Shown: positions 789 to 13,733 of the stretch, piece by piece
How positions within the stretch are numbered: position 1 is the stretch's first letter
How the letters are laid out: each line of letters begins with the position of its first letter
Source of the DNA: Deltaproteobacteria bacterium IMCC39524
GTDB lineage: Bacteria; Desulfobacterota; Desulfuromonadia; Desulfuromonadales; BM103
DNA length: 64,000 bases
NCBI GenBank assembly: GCA_029667085.1
Contig: JARUHJ010000001.1
Coordinates: 434,001 to 498,000, forward strand
Direction of reading: 5' to 3'
Made by a program: the position numbers and the translations under genes
Notes under the pieces: generated by a model
The model's database searches: none
What the model was told of the DNA's origin: nothing
Seen by the model: only the letters and a program-made list of their open reading frames with translations

Positions 789-1466
789 ATGAACTACTCC
801 CAAATACTTAAAACCTGTCCTTTCTTTGCTGGCCTTTCCGACGAGGATATAGAAGCCTTGATGGGGATTGCCCGCATCCGTGAATCTTCTCGAGGTGAAT
901 TGCTTTTCTCCGATGGTGAAAAGGCCATTGGGTTTTTTGTGGTTCTGGACGGTAAAGTCAAAGTTTACAAACTTTCTCCGGATGGCAAGGAGCGTATCCT
1001 TCATATTATCCACCCTGGCGGCACCTTTGCCGAGGCCGCTATCTTCGCTGATGGCTTGTATCCGGCCTACGCTGAGCCACTTCAATCTTCAAAATTACTG
1101 TTCCTCCCTAAAGAAGGCTTTCTTAACCTGTTGATGGATAATGGCAGAATCTCCATCAACATGATCGCTGGCCTTTCAAAGTTTCTCAGGCAGTTCGCCA
1201 ACCAGATAGAAGACCTGACCTTCAAGGACGTCCCGTCACGTCTTGCACGTTACCTTATGGCTCTCTCAGAAGGTGTGAAAGCTTCAGTAGAACTACCCAT
1301 CTCGAAGAGCCAACTGGCTTCCAACCTTGGAACGGTTAGTGAAACGCTTTCACGGACCTTGCGAAAGCTCTCTGAAGATGACCTGATCAGTGTCTCCGGC
1401 AAGAGGGTTGAAATTCTTGATTTTGAGCGCCTGGAAGAACTTGCTGAAAAATGTAAGGAAGGTTAG
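789..1466 (+). CDS. Crp/Fnr family transcription regulator, HcpR-like
   Basis: The 225-residue protein has an N-terminal cyclic-nucleotide-binding-type beta barrel (about 1-125), a long dimerisation helix and a C-terminal winged helix-turn-helix (about 165-220, KSQLASNLGTVSETLSRTLRKL). The Fnr-type cysteine cluster is absent; there is only C10 near the N terminus and one Cys close to the C terminus. It is therefore not a classical Fe-S Fnr and fits better with HcpR/DNR-like regulators that sense NO through heme. That sensing role is inferred. Immediate neighbours (HAO-like cytochrome, YgbA, FrdX-like ferredoxin) and two FNR-type palindromes at 1552 and 4369 support a nitrosative-stress regulator acting locally. 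A hairpin at 1510 separates it from the next operon. Confidence 0.85.
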   Translation: MNYSQILKTCPFFAGLSDEDIEALMGIARIRESSRGELLFSDGEKAIGFFVVLDGKVKVYKLSPDGKERILHIIHPGGTFAEAAIFADGLYPAYAEPLQSSKLLFLPKEGFLNLLMDNGRISINMIAGLSKFLRQFANQIEDLTFKDVPSRLARYLMALSEGVKASVELPISKSQLASNLGTVSETLSRTLRKLSEDDLISVSGKRVEILDFERLEELAEKCKEG

Positions 1467-1509
1467 GGGCGGTTGACGGGTTTTTGGGGCGGTTGATGGG
1501 GGGCAGGGG

Positions 1510-1554
1510 CTGGGGACTGGTAAAATCTTTGCCCCCCCCAGTCCCAGGTTTTTG
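1510..1554 (+). terminator. Probable terminator after the Crp/Fnr gene
   Basis: The arms CTGGGGACTGG and CCAGTCCCAG pair across a loop of about 17 bases, and the stem is followed by GTTTTT. The T run overlaps the left end of the palindrome at 1552, so termination of the regulator and control of the next operon are tightly packed. The upstream 40 bp are G-rich, with GGGGCGGTTGA occurring twice. Confidence 0.6.
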
Positions 1555-1565
1555 ACCTTAGTCAA
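1552..1565. promoter_or_regulatory. FNR/HcpR-family operator (TTGACCTTAGTCAA)
   Basis: A 14-bp palindrome with half sites TTGAC and GTCAA separated by four bases, the same architecture as FNR sites (TTGAT-N4-ATCAA). It lies 33 bp before the start of the lipoprotein-cytochrome operon. A near-identical site is at 4369. The nearby Crp/Fnr protein is the obvious candidate binder (inference). Confidence 0.65.
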
Positions 1566-1598
1566 CGCTTCCTCTTTCATATCTGTTATCCTGTTCGC

Positions 1599-2678
1599 AT
1601 GAAACGACTTCTCTTCAGTTCTATATTCTTTCTCGTCTTTGCGGCGGCTTGTTCCACGGGCACACCACCAGGATCAATCCCTGATTATCCCTTGCGTCCT
1701 CTGACAGATATTTCTGTTTCGGGTCTCTTCTCCGCAAATCAAAGCGGCACAAAGGTAGCCTACACCGACAACGGTTTATTCCTGCTTGATCCAGGCTCAG
1801 GCGACAAGAAAAAGCTTTCGTCTGAGAAACCGATTGCTTTGGCCTGGAGTCCTGATGGACTGTCGCTGGCGGCGGCTTTTGAGCGTGCCGACTTCGAGAC
1901 CGAACTGCTTGTGTATTCCGCAGGCGGTATGGTTATGAATGAAGCTGTAATCCCTGTTTCTTTGAGCCAGCTATACTGGAGCAGTCGTGGTGACCTGCTT
2001 GGGGTCGGTTTTGTGCTGAAGGTTTTTTCTTTCGGTGGCAACCTGCGTCAGCTTCTCTACCGGGTAGATGATGATACCTTGGAGGAAACACTTCTCACCG
2101 ACAGTACTTTTAGACCATCCTTGGCCAAACAGCTTAAGCCTCTTCTAAAGAGCATGCTGCCAGTCTCTTTCTCGCCTCAGGGTGATGAGCTTGTCTTTCT
2201 TTACCTTCTCGACCCGCCTTTGTTTTCGCCCTACTTTCAGCTCTTATACCAGAACTGGCAAGTCGACAAGCCGCGTGAAATTCACAAAGTTCCTTTGCAG
2301 GCCATGTCTCTTAGTTGGGATCTGTCTGGTCAGACAGTGAATGTCCTGTCAGAAGAGGGGGTGCAGACTTTCGTCCTCTGGCCTTCTGAAGGGGAAGCTG
2401 TGGCGCCGTCGAAAGCTGAGACCTATCGATTCATCGATGGCCGTCTTTATTATGGACCGGAGTTCCTTTACGATTGGGGCGAAAATTCGCAAATACAGAT
2501 ACTTGAAGATGGAAAGTTCCTGCTTTCAGTAAACCGTTTTCTTTATCTCGGTGACGGGCTGAAGAGCCCCTCTGCCTCAACTTATAATGAAAGAGAATGG
2601 AATTTACGCCGTTGGCGTTATGAAGAATTGGTGACCCCGTCTGAATACCAGAAGCTTCTGGAGGAGATAGATCAATGA
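1599..2678 (+). CDS. Lipoprotein, WD40/TolB-like propeller repeats
   Basis: The 359-residue product has a lipoprotein signal with lipobox FAAAC (C18). Following are repeated segments typical of TolB/WD40-like blades, for example LAWSPDGLSLAAAF and SFSPQGDELVFLY, so a beta-propeller is likely. There is no visible catalytic or metal motif. The ATG overlaps nothing upstream, while its stop overlaps the start of the cytochrome gene by ATGA, so both are translationally coupled. A partner role, such as holding the cytochrome at a membrane, is a guess. The operator palindrome at 1552 precedes it. Confidence 0.7.
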   Translation: MKRLLFSSIFFLVFAAACSTGTPPGSIPDYPLRPLTDISVSGLFSANQSGTKVAYTDNGLFLLDPGSGDKKKLSSEKPIALAWSPDGLSLAAAFERADFETELLVYSAGGMVMNEAVIPVSLSQLYWSSRGDLLGVGFVLKVFSFGGNLRQLLYRVDDDTLEETLLTDSTFRPSLAKQLKPLLKSMLPVSFSPQGDELVFLYLLDPPLFSPYFQLLYQNWQVDKPREIHKVPLQAMSLSWDLSGQTVNVLSEEGVQTFVLWPSEGEAVAPSKAETYRFIDGRLYYGPEFLYDWGENSQIQILEDGKFLLSVNRFLYLGDGLKSPSASTYNEREWNLRRWRYEELVTPSEYQKLLEEIDQ

Positions 2679-3982
2679 GTCGTTTTTTTCGTTTGCTCTG
2701 CCTGACTGGCCTGGCCCTCAGCATAGCCTGTACGGTTTTTGCTGAAGATTGCATTGAGTGCCACAAAAGGGAGACACCTGCTGCGGTAACGCAATGGCAG
2801 GGCAGCGTTCATGCAGCAGCTGTTGGCTGTAGCGCTTGCCATGGTGAGGATCATGAGGCGATCATCAATGGCAAGGCATTCGTTGATGCCAAGGTTTGCG
2901 GTCGTTGTCACGAAAAGGCCTTTCACGAACACGTCGATAGTAAACATGGTATGGGACTGCACGCTGGGTGGGGGTGCACACGTAATCTTGAAAGTCGGGA
3001 TCCGCGTGAATGTTCTTTCTGTCATGAGGAGGGCAGCACAAAACCAAAAACGACTGTGCAGTGTGCCCGCTTTTTAACTCAGTCTTCAGAGATGGGAGCG
3101 CTCGGGTGCAATCGTTGCCACCAGGTTGAGAACTCCTGTGCGTCTTGCCATACCAATCATATAACGGACCTTGCTTCCGTGCGCGCTCCGGAATCGTGTG
3201 CCACCTGCCATATGGGCCCTGATCATCCCCAGTGGGAGATGTGGCAGACCTCACGACATGGTGTGCTCTTTGAGGCCCTTGGTGAAGAGTTTGGGCCAAC
3301 CTGCCAACGTTGCCATATGCCAGAAGGGTCCCACAACGTCTCCTTCGGAATCACAATGTCACCGGCCATGATACAGCCGCCACCAGAAGAACGGGCTGTG
3401 CAACGCCAGGAAATGCTAAGTGTCTGCATCCAATGTCATTCCCGTTCATTCTCTGAGCGTGAACTGACAAGCGGCGATGCCATTCTTGAACAGAGCAAGG
3501 CTTTGATCAAGGAAGCCGCTGATATCATCAGAGATCTTGCTGATCACAACCTCCTTGTCCCATCGCTGCAAGAACGGCCGGAACATCCTTTGCGTGGTCG
3601 GGAACTGGTTCTCGATGCCCAGATGCTCTATGAGGATATCTCGCACGTTGAGAGGCTCTTCTTTAAAATGAAGAAATATGATCTCGCCAAAACGGTTAAA
3701 GGGGCCTTTCATCAAAACCCGGCTTATACCCATTGGTATGGTAATGCTGAGCTGAAGATGACTTTGGTGGATATCAAGGCTGAGGCGGCACGGTTGCACG
3801 CGAGTGTTTCAACCCGTGAGGTGAAGGCTCAGAAACATGTAGAGCAAGACCTTTATCTGTCTCTGGAGGAGGAGCTGCAGATTCTTAAACGTAAGCATGA
3901 ACGTGGTGCAATCACTGCTGATCAATATCGCGAAAGCAAGCAAGAGTTGTTTGAAAAGCTGCCAGAAGTGGAATCTGAGTAA
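2675..3982 (+). CDS. HAO-like multiheme cytochrome c (nine CXXCH)
   Basis: The 435-residue product has a signal peptide (about 1-23) and nine CXXCH heme motifs starting near residues 26, 52, 75, 113, 145, 155, 175, 210 and 251. The segments GLHAGWGCTRN, HTNH, QWEMWQTSRHG and CQRCHMPEGSH match the hydroxylamine-oxidoreductase-like family. Related epsilonproteobacterial proteins are reported to work reductively on nitrite/hydroxylamine rather than as ammonia-oxidiser HAO. The last 40 residues (LEEELQILKRKHERGAIT...) resemble a SHOCT-type tail, unusual for a periplasmic cytochrome. It is coupled to the lipoprotein upstream and followed by the YgbA-like gene. The substrate cannot be settled from sequence. 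Confidence 0.85.
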   Translation: MSRFFRLLCLTGLALSIACTVFAEDCIECHKRETPAAVTQWQGSVHAAAVGCSACHGEDHEAIINGKAFVDAKVCGRCHEKAFHEHVDSKHGMGLHAGWGCTRNLESRDPRECSFCHEEGSTKPKTTVQCARFLTQSSEMGALGCNRCHQVENSCASCHTNHITDLASVRAPESCATCHMGPDHPQWEMWQTSRHGVLFEALGEEFGPTCQRCHMPEGSHNVSFGITMSPAMIQPPPEERAVQRQEMLSVCIQCHSRSFSERELTSGDAILEQSKALIKEAADIIRDLADHNLLVPSLQERPEHPLRGRELVLDAQMLYEDISHVERLFFKMKKYDLAKTVKGAFHQNPAYTHWYGNAELKMTLVDIKAEAARLHASVSTREVKAQKHVEQDLYLSLEEELQILKRKHERGAITADQYRESKQELFEKLPEVESE

Positions 3983-3983
3983 C

Positions 3984-4364
3984 TTGAAAGAGAATAAAGC
4001 TAAATCAGTTCTGCCACTCACACGAAAAGAGCTCAAAGATCTCAAGGTTCTGTTGCAGTTTACAGCGGTGTATTGCTCGCAGAAGCATGATGCTGATCGT
4101 GCTGACGTTACGACTGATGAGCCTGAGTTGCAATCTCTTCCACTCCACAAGTATCCTGTATGTGGAGAGTGTCGTGATTTCGTTCTCTATGCGTTTGAAC
4201 GGCGTCTTCGTTGCCCTCTGGAAGAGAAACCGATTTGTAAACACTGCACTGTGCACTGCTACAAACCGGGCCACCGGGAGAAAGTTCGTGAAATTATGCG
4301 CTTTTCAGGTCAGTACCTGATCAAGCGCGGCAGGCTCGATCTCCTCTGGCATTATTTTTTCTAG
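3984..4364 (+). CDS. ygbA: YgbA-like protein (nitrous oxide-stimulated promoter family)
   Basis: The C-terminal two thirds carry the family signature: CGECRDFVLYAFERRLRCP, then EEKPICKHCTVHCYKPGHRE and REIMRFSG, with a set of Cys pairs suggesting metal binding. E. coli YgbA belongs to this family and is induced by nitric oxide via NsrR. The start is uncertain: an ATG at 3897 would overlap the cytochrome gene by 86 bp, whereas TTG at 3984, two bases after the cytochrome stop, gives 126 residues, close to the family length. I chose the TTG although no strong ribosome site is visible. Its place in this cluster supports a response to nitrogen oxides. Confidence 0.75.
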   Translation: MKENKAKSVLPLTRKELKDLKVLLQFTAVYCSQKHDADRADVTTDEPELQSLPLHKYPVCGECRDFVLYAFERRLRCPLEEKPICKHCTVHCYKPGHREKVREIMRFSGQYLIKRGRLDLLWHYFF

Positions 4365-4368
4365 CCTC

Positions 4369-4382
4369 TTGACCTCGGTCAA
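4369..4382. promoter_or_regulatory. FNR/HcpR-family operator (TTGACCTCGGTCAA)
   Basis: A perfect palindrome TTGACC-TC-GGTCAA of 14 bp, 98 bp upstream of the ferredoxin start. It differs from the site at 1552 only in two of the central bases. It fits the FNR-family half-site spacing and, from memory, the motif reported for HcpR in Desulfuromonas. Binding by the product of the gene at 789 is inferred. Confidence 0.7.
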
Positions 4383-4466
4383 AGCCAGCTTGCCAGCAAA
4401 CCGGTACTCTCATATCCAACACTAATCAAACCCACGACTAACCATACTTGAGCAGGAGATAAACCG

Positions 4467-5240
4467 ATGATTCGTAAAATGGTCAAGATTGACGAAGAAA
4501 AATGCAACGGTTGCGGTGATTGCGTACCCGCTTGTGCCGAAGGTGCTATCCAGATTATTGACGGCAAGGCCAAGCTGCTTGCTGATAACCTCTGTGATGG
4601 ACTCGGTGCCTGCCTCGGTGACTGTCCGATGGATGCCATTACCATCGAAGAGCGTGAAGCCGATGAGTATGATGAAGTCGCAGTCAATGATCATTTGAAG
4701 GATATTGGCCGTGAACCGCTTTCTCATAATGAAGAGCCGGCAGCGCCTGCGAGTGGCTGCCCTTCAGCGACCGTCAAAAGCTTTTCACCACCCGCTGGCG
4801 GTGGTTGCCCCTCGGCGCGCGCGATGAACTTTGATAAAGCTCCCGCGGAAGAGAGTGCCGATGTCGGATCGCGACCTTCACGTCTGGCGCAATGGCCTGT
4901 TCAACTGCATCTGGTGCCCCCGACGGCTCCTTTTTTTTAGGGTGCTGATGTTGTTCTTGCTGCCGACTGTGCACCTTTTGCCTACGCTGACTTCCAGGAA
5001 GACCTTCTCAAGGGTAAGGCCCTGGCGATTGCCTGCCCGAAGCTCGATGACACGTCTCCTTATGTTGACAAGCTCACAGCGATGATTACAGAGAGCAACA
5101 TCAAGAGTCTGACTGTGGTTCATATGGAAGTTCCATGTTGTAACGGTTTGGTCATGATGGCCAAGCAGGCTCTTGCGAACAGTGGTCGCGATATTCCTTT
5201 CGAAACGGTTTGCATCAGTATCCGTGGTGATAAAAAATAA
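4467..5240 (+). pseudogene. FrdX-like 2x[4Fe-4S] ferredoxin protein, in-frame amber
   Basis: The N-terminal 70 residues form a ferredoxin domain (CNGCGDCVPAC and a second CDGLGACLGDCP cluster). A linker has two repeats of a GCPSA motif, and the C-terminal part (GADVVLAADCAP..., MEVPCCNGL) continues in the same frame after a TAG at 4938-4940. The open part upstream of the amber is 157 codons; with read-through the product would be 257 residues, the length of typical family members. The residue after PFF is Gln or Lys in homologues as I recall, so C to T or T to A at 4938 explains it. This may be a real nonsense mutation, a sequencing error at the eight-T run, or suppression. Family members accompany hybrid cluster protein and are in HcpR regulons. 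Good RBS; operator at 4369. Confidence 0.75.
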
Positions 5241-11330: not shown

Positions 11331-13733
11331 ATGAAGGTCACCTTGAACTGGCTCAAGGAATACGTTGATTTCGATTTTAGTGCTGACGATCTTTCCCATC
11401 GGTTGACCATGACTGGTCTCGAGGTTGACGCCATGGAGCGTTTGGGAGAAGGGTTGGACACAGTCATTGTCGCCCGCCTTGCAGATGTGCAGCAACACCC
11501 TGACGCTGATCGACTGACCGTCTGCAAAGTTGATACAGGCAGCGCTACACAACAGGTAGTTTGTGGAGCCAAAAATCACAAAACCGGTGATCTGATTGCC
11601 CTGGCGCAGGTCGGTACGGTCCTGCCGGGAAACTTCAAGATCAAAAAGTCAAAGATCCGCGGCCAAGAGTCCTTCGGCATGCTCTGCTCAATGAGCGAAC
11701 TGGGTCTGTCGGAAGAATCCGATGGCATCATGATCTTGCCTTCAGACCTTGATTTGGGTCGTCCGGTATTCGAACAGTTGGGTCTCAAGGATGTCATGTA
11801 TGAGATCGGTTTGACTCCGAATCGATCAGACTGTTTGAGCGTTGTTGGTGTCGCACGTGAGGTTGCCGCTATGGCGGACGCTTCGTTGCGTCTTCCTGAG
11901 CCTGTCATTCTCGAGAATGACACCTTGGCTGCCGAGAAAACTTCAGTCTCTCTTGAAGACCCCAACCTGTGCCCACGTTACGCCGCGCGCCTGATCGAAA
12001 ATGTAAAGATCGGCCCGTCACCGGAGTGGCTCGTAGGTCGTCTCGAGGCTGTTGGCTTGAGATCAATTAACAACGTCGTTGATGTGACCAACTTTGTCAT
12101 GATGGAATTGGGCCAGCCATTGCACGCATTCGATTTCAACCTCCTGCGTGAACAGCGGATCGTGGTGCGTCGAGCAGAGCAGGGGGCTGAATTCACAACC
12201 CTCGATGGTCAGGTTCGCACTCTGTTGGCATCAGACCTGGTGATCTGTGACGGTGAAGGCCCTATTGCCCTTGCAGGCGTTATGGGTGGTGGCAATTCTG
12301 AAGTTAGTTCCGAGACAACAGACATTCTGCTGGAAAGCGCATACTTCAATCCGGTGACCATCCGTCGTACCAGTAAGCGGCTGGGCCTGCATACTGATGC
12401 TTCTCATCGTTTTGAACGTGGTACTGATGTCGACATGGTGCCTCTGGCTCTAGATCGTGCTACTGCATTGATTGCAGAGCTGGCGTCAGGGCAGGTCGCC
12501 AAAGGTGTTGTTGATGAGTACCCTTCCGCTTTGCCACGCCGTACCGTGACGGTCAGTGCATCAAAAGCCAGCCAGATCCTCGGTCTCGAGGTCGATGCTG
12601 ACGATATGTGTCATAAGCTTACTTCAATAGGCCTCAATTGTGATCTTCATGACGGAGCCGTTAAGGTAGAAATTCCTAACTTCCGTCCCGACCTCGAGCG
12701 GGAGATTGACCTTGTTGAAGAGGTCGCACGCCTGATTGGTTATGACCAGATTCCTGTAACCATGCCAGTCAGCACCCTGACTTGCCAGCAACTCCCCGAA
12801 CATCTGAGCAGTGAAAGACAAGTTAGAGAATTACTGATTGAATTAGGATACTCAGAGATTATCAACTATTCATTCTATAACGCTAGCTGTCTTGACAAGC
12901 TGAGAATTGACGAAAACGATTCGCGCCGACAGAACGTTAATATCCTCAATCCTCTCACGGAAGAGCAGGGGGTGATGAGAACCAGTCTGGTGCCGAGCCT
13001 TCTGGAAACTGCATCACGTAACCTGGCCTATCGTAGCGAAGATCTGGCACTTTTTGAGTTGCGGCCGGTATTTCAACCGGTTAAAGACTCCGAGATGGCT
13101 CGTGAAAGCCTTCGCCTCTCAGCTTTCCTCTGTGGCCGCCGTGAACCCCAGGGGTGGGCGCAGTCTTCAGATGAAGCCGATTTCTTCGATATGAAGGGCG
13201 TTGTCGAGCAGCTGTTAAGCAATCTCGGCGTCAGGGACGTATGCTGGCAGGTTGAACATGATGAAGCTTTTTACCATCCTGGCAAGTCCTGTGCGATTTA
13301 TCAGGGTGAGCGTTTGCTCGGAACTCTGGGTGAGTTGCACCCTGAAGTGATTCGTAATTTTGATCTTGCTCCGTCATCAATCCTCTGTGATATCGATATC
13401 GAAGCGCTCTTTAAAATTGGTGACAAGACGATTAAGTTCCAGCCTCTCTCACGCTTCCCGGATGTCCAGCGAGACTCGGCTTTCCTGGTAGATATTGATG
13501 TGGCTGCACAGCAGGTTTTCTCGATTCTTAACCGTGTCAAAATCAAGGATCTGGAGAGTATTGAACTTTTTGATGTCTACTGTGGCGAGGGGCTTCCTGA
13601 AGGCAAGAAGAGTCTGGCGATCCGCGCCTGCTATCGCGCAATGGACCGAACTCTTACCGATGAATTAATACAGAATCTTCATGGAAAGCTGATTAAGGCC
13701 ATGGAAAAGGAGCTCGGAGCCGAGCTTCGTTAA
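11331..13733 (+). CDS. pheT: Phenylalanyl-tRNA synthetase beta subunit
   Basis: The 800-residue beta subunit has the N-terminal EMAP-like tRNA-binding domain (HPDADRLTVCKVD, about residues 40-150), the B3/B4 editing region, the B5 domain and the catalytic-like core, and a C-terminal ferredoxin-fold anticodon-binding domain from about 705 (SRFPDVQRDSAFLV). Length is standard. ATG follows AAAGGACTTTAGGT. Confidence 0.97.
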   Translation: MKVTLNWLKEYVDFDFSADDLSHRLTMTGLEVDAMERLGEGLDTVIVARLADVQQHPDADRLTVCKVDTGSATQQVVCGAKNHKTGDLIALAQVGTVLPGNFKIKKSKIRGQESFGMLCSMSELGLSEESDGIMILPSDLDLGRPVFEQLGLKDVMYEIGLTPNRSDCLSVVGVAREVAAMADASLRLPEPVILENDTLAAEKTSVSLEDPNLCPRYAARLIENVKIGPSPEWLVGRLEAVGLRSINNVVDVTNFVMMELGQPLHAFDFNLLREQRIVVRRAEQGAEFTTLDGQVRTLLASDLVICDGEGPIALAGVMGGGNSEVSSETTDILLESAYFNPVTIRRTSKRLGLHTDASHRFERGTDVDMVPLALDRATALIAELASGQVAKGVVDEYPSALPRRTVTVSASKASQILGLEVDADDMCHKLTSIGLNCDLHDGAVKVEIPNFRPDLEREIDLVEEVARLIGYDQIPVTMPVSTLTCQQLPEHLSSERQVRELLIELGYSEIINYSFYNASCLDKLRIDENDSRRQNVNILNPLTEEQGVMRTSLVPSLLETASRNLAYRSEDLALFELRPVFQPVKDSEMARESLRLSAFLCGRREPQGWAQSSDEADFFDMKGVVEQLLSNLGVRDVCWQVEHDEAFYHPGKSCAIYQGERLLGTLGELHPEVIRNFDLAPSSILCDIDIEALFKIGDKTIKFQPLSRFPDVQRDSAFLVDIDVAAQQVFSILNRVKIKDLESIELFDVYCGEGLPEGKKSLAIRACYRAMDRTLTDELIQNLHGKLIKAMEKELGAELR

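Follow-up and report, generated by a model that had tools for sequence, protein, structure and literature searches.

The 64,000-nucleotide window analysed here (the whole stretch, positions 434,001 to 498,000 of contig JARUHJ010000001.1 of Deltaproteobacteria bacterium IMCC39524) carries five genes on the + strand in a 4.5-kb run: hcpR, the gene of a propeller lipoprotein, the gene of an HAO-like cytochrome, ygbA and frdX. As far as gene content and operators predict it, the run very probably serves as an on-demand bacterial response to toxic nitrogen compounds. What is new lies in its middle pair, a cytochrome with nine heme motifs and the lipoprotein encoded in front of it. The original prediction, made from the letters and open reading frames (ORFs) alone, had placed five such genes with matched operators in one compact regulon for nitric oxide (NO) and hydroxylamine. 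All five could be identified, mostly by family profiles above cut-off, and the matched operators are two perfect HcpR-type palindromes, one in front of the lipoprotein gene and one in front of frdX; the nine heme motifs, the strict pairing of lipoprotein and cytochrome and a stop codon inside frdX go beyond it. The features of the locus are as follows.

789..1466, + strand: hcpR, Crp/Fnr-family regulator of 225 amino acids (aa), PF00027 and PF13545 above cut-off
1552..1565, + strand: operator before the lipoprotein gene, TTGACCTTAGTCAA, HcpR-type, perfect palindrome
1587..1592, + strand: candidate -10 hexamer TATCCT, 21 bp past the lipoprotein operator
1599..2678, + strand: lipoprotein, 359 aa, lipobox Cys18, beta-propeller, C-terminal helical SHOCT-like tail
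2675..3982, + strand: nonaheme HAO-like cytochrome, 435 aa, Sec-type signal judged by eye, PF13447
3011..3025, + strand: probable extra heme motif CSFCH, cytochrome residues 113-117, between conserved Cys101 and Cys130
3734..3736, + strand: codon of cytochrome Trp354, eight residues past His346, by spacing the cross-linking Tyr position of oxidative HAO
3869..3949, + strand: SHOCT-like C-terminal tail, cytochrome residues 399-425, PF09851 below cut-off
3984..4364, + strand: ygbA, 126 aa, TTG start (our choice), PF11756 and NF007714 above cut-off
4369..4382, + strand: operator before frdX, TTGACCTCGGTCAA, HcpR-type, perfect palindrome
4405..4410, + strand: candidate -10 hexamer TACTCT, 22 bp past the frdX operator
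4467..4940, + strand: frdX 5' part, ferredoxin domain, 157 aa, closed by an in-frame TAG
4941..5240, + strand: frdX 3' part beyond the stop, Cys-containing C-terminal domain, no Pfam family at E<=0.001

The last four bases of the lipoprotein gene are also the first four of the cytochrome gene. PF13447 scores 75.2 bits on the cytochrome (cut-off 21.9) and YgbA matches both PF11756 (70.3 bits, cut-off 25) and NF007714 (114.2 bits, cut-off 88), while no Pfam family matches the lipoprotein at E<=0.001.

A nonaheme branch of the HAO family

The window cytochrome has nine CXXCH motifs, at residues 26, 52, 75, 113, 145, 155, 175, 210 and 251. Its earlier description as HAO-like stands, through the PF13447 core and its relation to solved HAOs (best PDB E-value 2.2e-47), but with nine motifs in place of the eight of the octaheme cytochrome c (HAO) family it is not a standard octaheme HAO. 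Nine motifs are present in 19 of 19 complete orthologs, a twentieth being cut by a contig end. An alignment with solved HAOs matches all eight HAO motifs, three of them with the first three of the window protein and five with its last five, and leaves the motif at residue 113 unpaired. Against HDH and some of the octaheme rows, 113 can instead be paired with the catalytic-type motif, and because such alternative pairings occur, the assignment of 113 rather than 145 as the extra motif is probable, not proven.

The position of this enzyme among its relatives was examined in named genomes, using the best 80 of 568 confirmed matches (31 nonaheme and 49 others). The nine aligned motifs together with Cys101 and Cys130 occur in 32/32 nonaheme rows (the 31 plus the window) and in none of the 49 others. 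In a tree with 81 rows, from which two of 83 were left out for length (L275, L287), the 32 nonaheme rows form one clade with support 100/99 that represents a single change, and this clade spans Desulfuromonadia, plus single bins labelled Desulfobulbaceae and Myxococcales, and Nitrospirota. Nine motifs as a unique mark of the branch were rejected, as ten of the 49 others have nine and two have ten, at other spacings and in other clades. What is specific to the branch is the set of motif positions, cysteines, tail and partner. A nine-motif group from Rokubacteria, Gemmatimonadota and Dadabacteria (L261-L264, L266-L268, L270, L271, L273) is likewise HAO-related but forms a separate clade with another motif spacing, and has neither the Cys101/Cys130 pair, nor a tail match, nor a lipoprotein match alongside. 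With the HAO family at large (oxidative HAO/HDH and reductive Hao) the window enzyme shares the PF13447 core, three N-terminal hemes, an Asp183-His184 pair and five C-terminal hemes including the catalytic-type heme; it differs in the ninth motif, probably located between heme 3 and the catalytic heme, in Cys101 and Cys130, in a Trp that by spacing occupies the cross-link position, in the SHOCT-like tail and in the lipoprotein partner gene.

The lipoprotein partner and the shared tail

The structural model of the lipoprotein is a beta-propeller (pLDDT 86.6, pTM 0.83), and a Foldseek search with it returned TolB and WD40 propellers; these matches are generic, and the protein was rejected as a known enzyme. 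Across 277 genomes of the class the nonaheme gene was found in 56 and the lipoprotein in 66, and the lipoprotein gene lies directly upstream of the nonaheme gene at 57 of 58 class places, the single exception being 149 bases from a contig end. The pairing extends to the named genomes, where, among the same best 80 matches, the lipoprotein gene precedes the cytochrome gene in 29 of 31 nonaheme loci, with a contig end close by in the two exceptions, and in 0/49 loci of the other HAO relatives.

The two proteins also resemble each other at their C-termini. A profile comparison of the two tails scored 27.2, whereas 119 other windows gave no more than 12.8 and 100 column shuffles no more than 15.0, and the cytochrome-tail profile matches 29/31 nonaheme proteins (some of them among the rows from which it was built) and 0/49 others. 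The tail of the window cytochrome is SHOCT-like, PF09851 matching it with E=1.5e-4 and 21.8 bits, below the Pfam cut-off of 27; at E<=0.1 the family matches 15 of 19 cytochrome members, and on the lipoproteins it gives one weak match in 20 at E<=1. The best reading of this pairing is that the propeller lipoprotein is a dedicated partner of the cytochrome, with which we infer it forms a complex. The propeller suspected in the original prediction is thus supported by the model, but its remark that the lipoprotein had no known role gives way to a testable one. In a partial literature search, with most subscription papers outside it, no nonaheme HAO with a lipoprotein partner was described.

HcpR, its operators and the wider regulon

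The pattern TTGAC-N4-GTCAA occurs perfectly at two sites in the 64 kb, where 0.09 are expected and two were reached in 1 of 100 shuffles; allowing one mismatch added no site in the window, against 2.77 expected, and hence gives no enrichment. Both operators correspond to the published HcpR motif for Desulfuromonas and Geobacter, wyTTGACnnnnGTCAArw, and HcpR of this type carries Ser (or Pro) at position 180 and Glu at 181 (PMC1274295). The Crp/Fnr regulator of the window has the Ser-Glu pair of the Desulfuromonas/Geobacter type in its recognition helix (...GTVSETLSRTL...), the assignment of helix residues to positions 180/181 being our own mapping. In the HcpR alignment (A3; 11 of 15 orthologs, 59-96% identical), the pair is Ser-Glu in nine and Gly-Glu (VGETLSR) in two.

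In 16 of the 20 relatives' loci L044-L063, the roughly 250 bp in front of the lipoprotein gene contain an operator with at most one mismatch. Over all upstream regions such a site precedes the lipoprotein gene in 24/56, few of them in Geobacteraceae, and frdX in 25/38 regions of relatives; it was found in 0/51 regions directly before the cytochrome gene and in 0/30 before hcpR. The best-scoring offset of a -10-like box past a perfect operator was 21 bp for 16 lipoprotein promoters and 22 bp for 18 frdX and 6 ygbA promoters, these being best scores over promoters with a perfect operator and without a shuffle control. A spacing of 21-22 bp is the geometry of an activator site overlapping the -35 element. 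The lipoprotein start codon lies only 6 bases past its candidate -10 hexamer (1587-1601), an arrangement kept in close relatives, which suggests a nearly leaderless lipoprotein mRNA.

Genome-wide there are 10 perfect operator sites, compared with 2 for the reversed pattern. Beyond the two of the locus, one lies in the intergenic region between hcp and a divergent gene, so that TTGACnnnnGTCAA sites stand upstream of both hcp and frdX, and one lies between the nap genes and divergent mob genes, with mobA 83 bp away and the napA ORF at a distance of approximately 430 bp. Another is found upstream of a two-octaheme cluster (L069:8020-11999, operator at 12146), in which two octaheme Hao-like proteins flank a 201-aa protein without a Pfam family; by spacing, both octahemes have Trp at the key position, and both have Met eight residues earlier. 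A further one of the 10, at L066:6959, starts 66 bp upstream of the gene of a 207-aa membrane protein. The remaining 4 lie within ORFs or at their ends and were left out of the regulon.

The regulon idea itself agrees with the literature, as operator, Ser-Glu helix and target genes fit the published HcpR predictions for Desulfuromonas and Geobacter (Rodionov et al. 2004, PMC545781; 2005, PMC1274295), which share with the present locus the operator consensus, the regulator type, hcp and frdX as members, and a cytochrome c gene with its own site beside frdX1. The 2004 table lists HcpR sites of Desulfuromonas before a cytochrome c gene (390999) and frdX1 (390998), whose locus numbers are adjacent (PMC545781), and this entry is probably the present locus. 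What differs is that the available text of these papers names neither the lipoprotein nor ygbA as a target in this group, nor a nonaheme enzyme.

Conservation of the gene order

Close cytochrome orthologs (E<=1e-150) are present at 20 places in 19 of 58 genomes, the window's own included. The neighbourhood is conserved, so that for gene order the original prediction withstands the check it proposed: all five genes stand in order in 10 of 20 relatives' loci chosen by the cytochrome, although in L049 a gap of 1.8 kb separates hcpR from the lipoprotein gene. HcpR is missing from four loci (L058, L060-L062), the contig stops at the cytochrome or beyond it in three (L056, L059, L063), L046 has no FrdX, and L055 and L057 keep only part. 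Fifteen further loci chosen by FrdX show HcpR-YgbA-FrdX without the lipoprotein-cytochrome pair in eight cases, all five genes in two, HcpR-lipoprotein-YgbA-FrdX without the cytochrome in one, and FrdX without the others, within the stretch read, in four. As HcpR-YgbA-FrdX occurs without the pair, these three genes form the core, into which the pair seems to have been inserted behind HcpR and ahead of YgbA.

Neighbours of the pair elsewhere in the class were clustered without family annotation at 22 loci, three of them with the lipoprotein only, and may include nitrogen genes. Apart from the pair, the commonest cluster (11 loci) resembles response regulators; an FrdX-like ORF is present at one locus and a weak Crp/Fnr match at one. 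Two genomes hold two copies of the pair on different contigs, G003 (L044, L045) and G140 (L108, L193); G003 is listed with 7% contamination, and its two copies may therefore come from two strains. Next to the window's own run, a DsrE-like protein (PF02635) with a possible signal sequence is encoded at 162-638 on the - strand, divergent from hcpR, as it is in some relatives.

A stop codon within frdX

The run had been drawn to 5240; frdX is indeed present from 4467, but with an in-frame TAG at 4938-4940 its intact ORF ends at 4940, not 5240. All 14 relatives' loci compared have a sense codon at that place and both frdX parts continuous, and against L044, L045 and L047 the two halves show identities of 94% and 99-100%. 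An uninterrupted ferredoxin plus C-terminal domain, as in FrdX, is thus not what the window genome encodes, and the equation with the FrdX of the literature rests on operator and context rather than on sequence comparison. Recoding of the TAG as pyrrolysine was rejected, PylS reaching 20.5 bits against a cut-off of 178 and PylD staying below cut-off in 6/6 genomes. The three in-frame stops examined in relatives all lie at other codons, being TAGs in frdX (L102, L103) and in the cytochrome gene (L112); two further stops flagged among cytochrome matches lie outside these three. A paralog of the FrdX C-terminal domain was found in 11 of 12 genomes searched (L304-L314), and the window genome has no second FrdX-type or C-terminal-domain match at E<=1e-15.

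The key residue and the direction of catalysis

The oxidative HAO and HDH chains compared here have a Tyr eight residues past a conserved His, which we take to be the cross-link Tyr (NeHAO Tyr467). In the window enzyme the residue at His346 + 8 is Trp354, invariant in the cytochrome alignment A1 (which omits 2 of the 20 loci, L050, flagged for a stop, and L063, at a contig end; alignment A2 omits L058) and present in 31/31 nonaheme rows with letters there, so that with moderate certainty the Tyr cross-link of oxidative HAO (P460) is missing. One HMMER pairing sets Tyr355 opposite a residue of 4n4j that we take to be its cross-linking Tyr; Tyr355 as cross-link residue was dropped after comparison of the His-or-Met + 8 spacing and of the published Hao rule. 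Because gapped alignments put other residues at the key position, the replacement of the cross-linking Tyr by Trp354 is probable, not proven. Campylobacterota Hao has Trp at the cross-link place (PMC8940962), and compared with epsilon-type reductive Hao, in which this Trp goes with a Met eight residues before, the window enzyme has the Trp but His346 for the Met. Anammox bacteria aside, a recent analysis predicts the reductive version for the great majority of species (PMC12758564). Since a Trp stands, by spacing, where oxidative HAOs carry their cross-linking Tyr, the cytochrome most likely works reductively on nitrite, NO or hydroxylamine.

Discussion

Taken jointly, gene content, operators and residue pattern favour, at slightly better than even confidence, an HcpR-controlled reactive-nitrogen locus in which a periplasmic, reductive nonaheme enzyme is held by its lipoprotein partner. 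In such a scheme HcpR, by analogy with its family, probably senses NO or stress derived from nitrite, would bind the two TTGAC-N4-GTCAA sites at a spacing from the -10-like boxes that fits an activator overlapping the -35 element, and would switch on lipoprotein, cytochrome and ygbA as one unit and frdX as a second. The nine-heme cytochrome would then reduce nitrite, NO or hydroxylamine in the periplasm, its extra heme, flanked by the two conserved cysteines, lengthening the electron entry path to the catalytic heme, while the propeller lipoprotein could dock the cytochrome through the similar C-terminal helical tails and hold it at the membrane. FrdX, truncated in this genome, is the likely donor feeding Hcp, which would finish the reduction in the cytoplasm. 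More tentatively, and in our view somewhat short of an even chance, the nonaheme HAO and the propeller lipoprotein may constitute an unnamed two-protein, membrane-held nitrogen-oxide reductase of Desulfuromonadia and Nitrospirota, joined by their tails, with the ninth heme and the cysteine pair as a new electron entry port, that in one order came to lie between HcpR and YgbA as an inducible module against nitrosative stress.

Several observations weigh against this interpretation. The hcp and nap sites sit between divergent genes, and the -10-like boxes at the hcp, nap and octaheme sites of this genome are weak. The frdX gene of the window genome is interrupted. In some MAFFT and HMMER pairings the residue facing the cross-linking Tyr is His353 or Tyr355, not Trp354, and 12 of the 49 other relatives have nine or ten motifs. 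The AlphaFold model of the cytochrome, made without heme, is poor (pLDDT 60.3) and was not used for a fold search; heme geometry and key residue consequently rest on sequence. The lipoprotein occurs without a nonaheme match at E<=1e-100 in ten genomes, although two of these (G010, G132) have a contig-end fragment, so that it stands alone in up to eight. Finally, in Geobacteraceae the pair is mostly found without HcpR, YgbA or FrdX and usually without a recognisable operator, and its role there may therefore differ from that in the window locus.

This last distribution, with the pair common in Geobacteraceae away from HcpR, YgbA and FrdX, is what makes an electron-transfer role the main rival. 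The pair could primarily be an electron conduit or a broad-specificity terminal reductase for metal or extracellular electron transfer, recruited by HcpR in one order, with nitrogen-oxide turnover as a side activity, as for OcwA. OcwA, the nonaheme cytochrome of Thermincola potens, is a terminal reductase at the cell surface that also acts on nitrite reductively and on hydroxylamine in both directions, reductive and oxidative (PMC6703420), and it shares with the window enzyme nine hemes, membership of the NrfA/HAO superfamily and a nitrite and hydroxylamine chemistry that is its own and here predicted. It differs as a cell-surface reductase of a Gram-positive organism and in that HAO lacks OcwA heme 2 by that paper's numbering, whereas the extra motif here is probably the fourth (PMC6703420). 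The sequence of the window enzyme is closest to HAO and HDH, OcwA is absent from the 11 PDB sequences that it matches at E<=0.01, and the order in the window ties the pair to HcpR operators, ygbA and frdX. We regard the electron-transfer role as rather unlikely.

The HcpR-controlled reductive pair described above also has to be set against decay of the locus in this genome, in which loss of the FrdX C-terminal domain would impair the route to Hcp and leave the module working in part. The in-frame TAG speaks for decay, as does the finding that a C-terminal-domain paralog is kept in 11/11 other genomes and no second FrdX-type match was found in this one (E<=1e-15). Against it, the other four genes and both operators are intact and a lone TAG of this kind may be a mistake in the assembly; there is also no sign of the pyrrolysine route mentioned above, and decay appears improbable. 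Most doubtful is an oxidative HAO that converts hydroxylamine to NO and passes electrons to the periplasmic cytochrome pool. The best PDB matches do include oxidative HAO and HDH and one alignment offers Tyr355, but the residue at the conserved His + 8 is Trp354, position 355 is Ile in 3/19 orthologs and the published analysis cited above predicts the reductive version for the great majority of species other than anammox bacteria.

Two further systems help to place the HcpR-controlled locus. The reverse-HURM pathway of Nautilia profundicola combines Nap, a HaoA without the Tyr, Hcp and a 4Fe-4S donor (PMC3701875), and by gene content the window genome has its parts, Nap, a Tyr-less Hao and Hcp, with no NrfA above cut-off (searched as PF02335 only). 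It differs in the HcpR-type sites beside these parts, in the added nonaheme enzyme and in the presence of NrfA in some module-carrying relatives. An NrfA match above cut-off was obtained for 4 of the 10 module carriers searched (G006, G014, G016 and, with a fragment at a contig edge, G009) and for 3 of 4 non-carriers, which is no firm trend; because 4/10 carriers also have NrfA, the module as an NrfA replacement was rejected as a simple account. In the NsrR regulon of E. coli and Salmonella (ygbA, ytfE, hcp-hcr), ygbA and hcp are co-regulated in one nitrosative-stress response, as they may be here, with the repressor NsrR in place of HcpR and, in the available text, no HAO-like enzyme named (PMC2884951, PMC5320621). 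One paper reports ygbA as dispensable for an anaerobic NO-scavenging activity.

In summary, the regulon part of our work confirms and extends a 20-year-old prediction without changing it, and the middle pair is where the locus bears on a wider question. Eight hemes are the accepted number for HAO-type cytochromes, and a single residue is used to tell the oxidative from the reductive direction. A nonaheme so close to HAO in sequence provides a test case for the proposal that octahemes arose from nonahemes by heme loss (PMC6703420). If our reading is true, the lipoprotein gains a testable role, and the nine-heme branch with its lipoprotein partner, carried by environmentally common metal reducers and Nitrospirota, would add an unassigned enzyme to the turnover of nitrite, NO and hydroxylamine in sediments.

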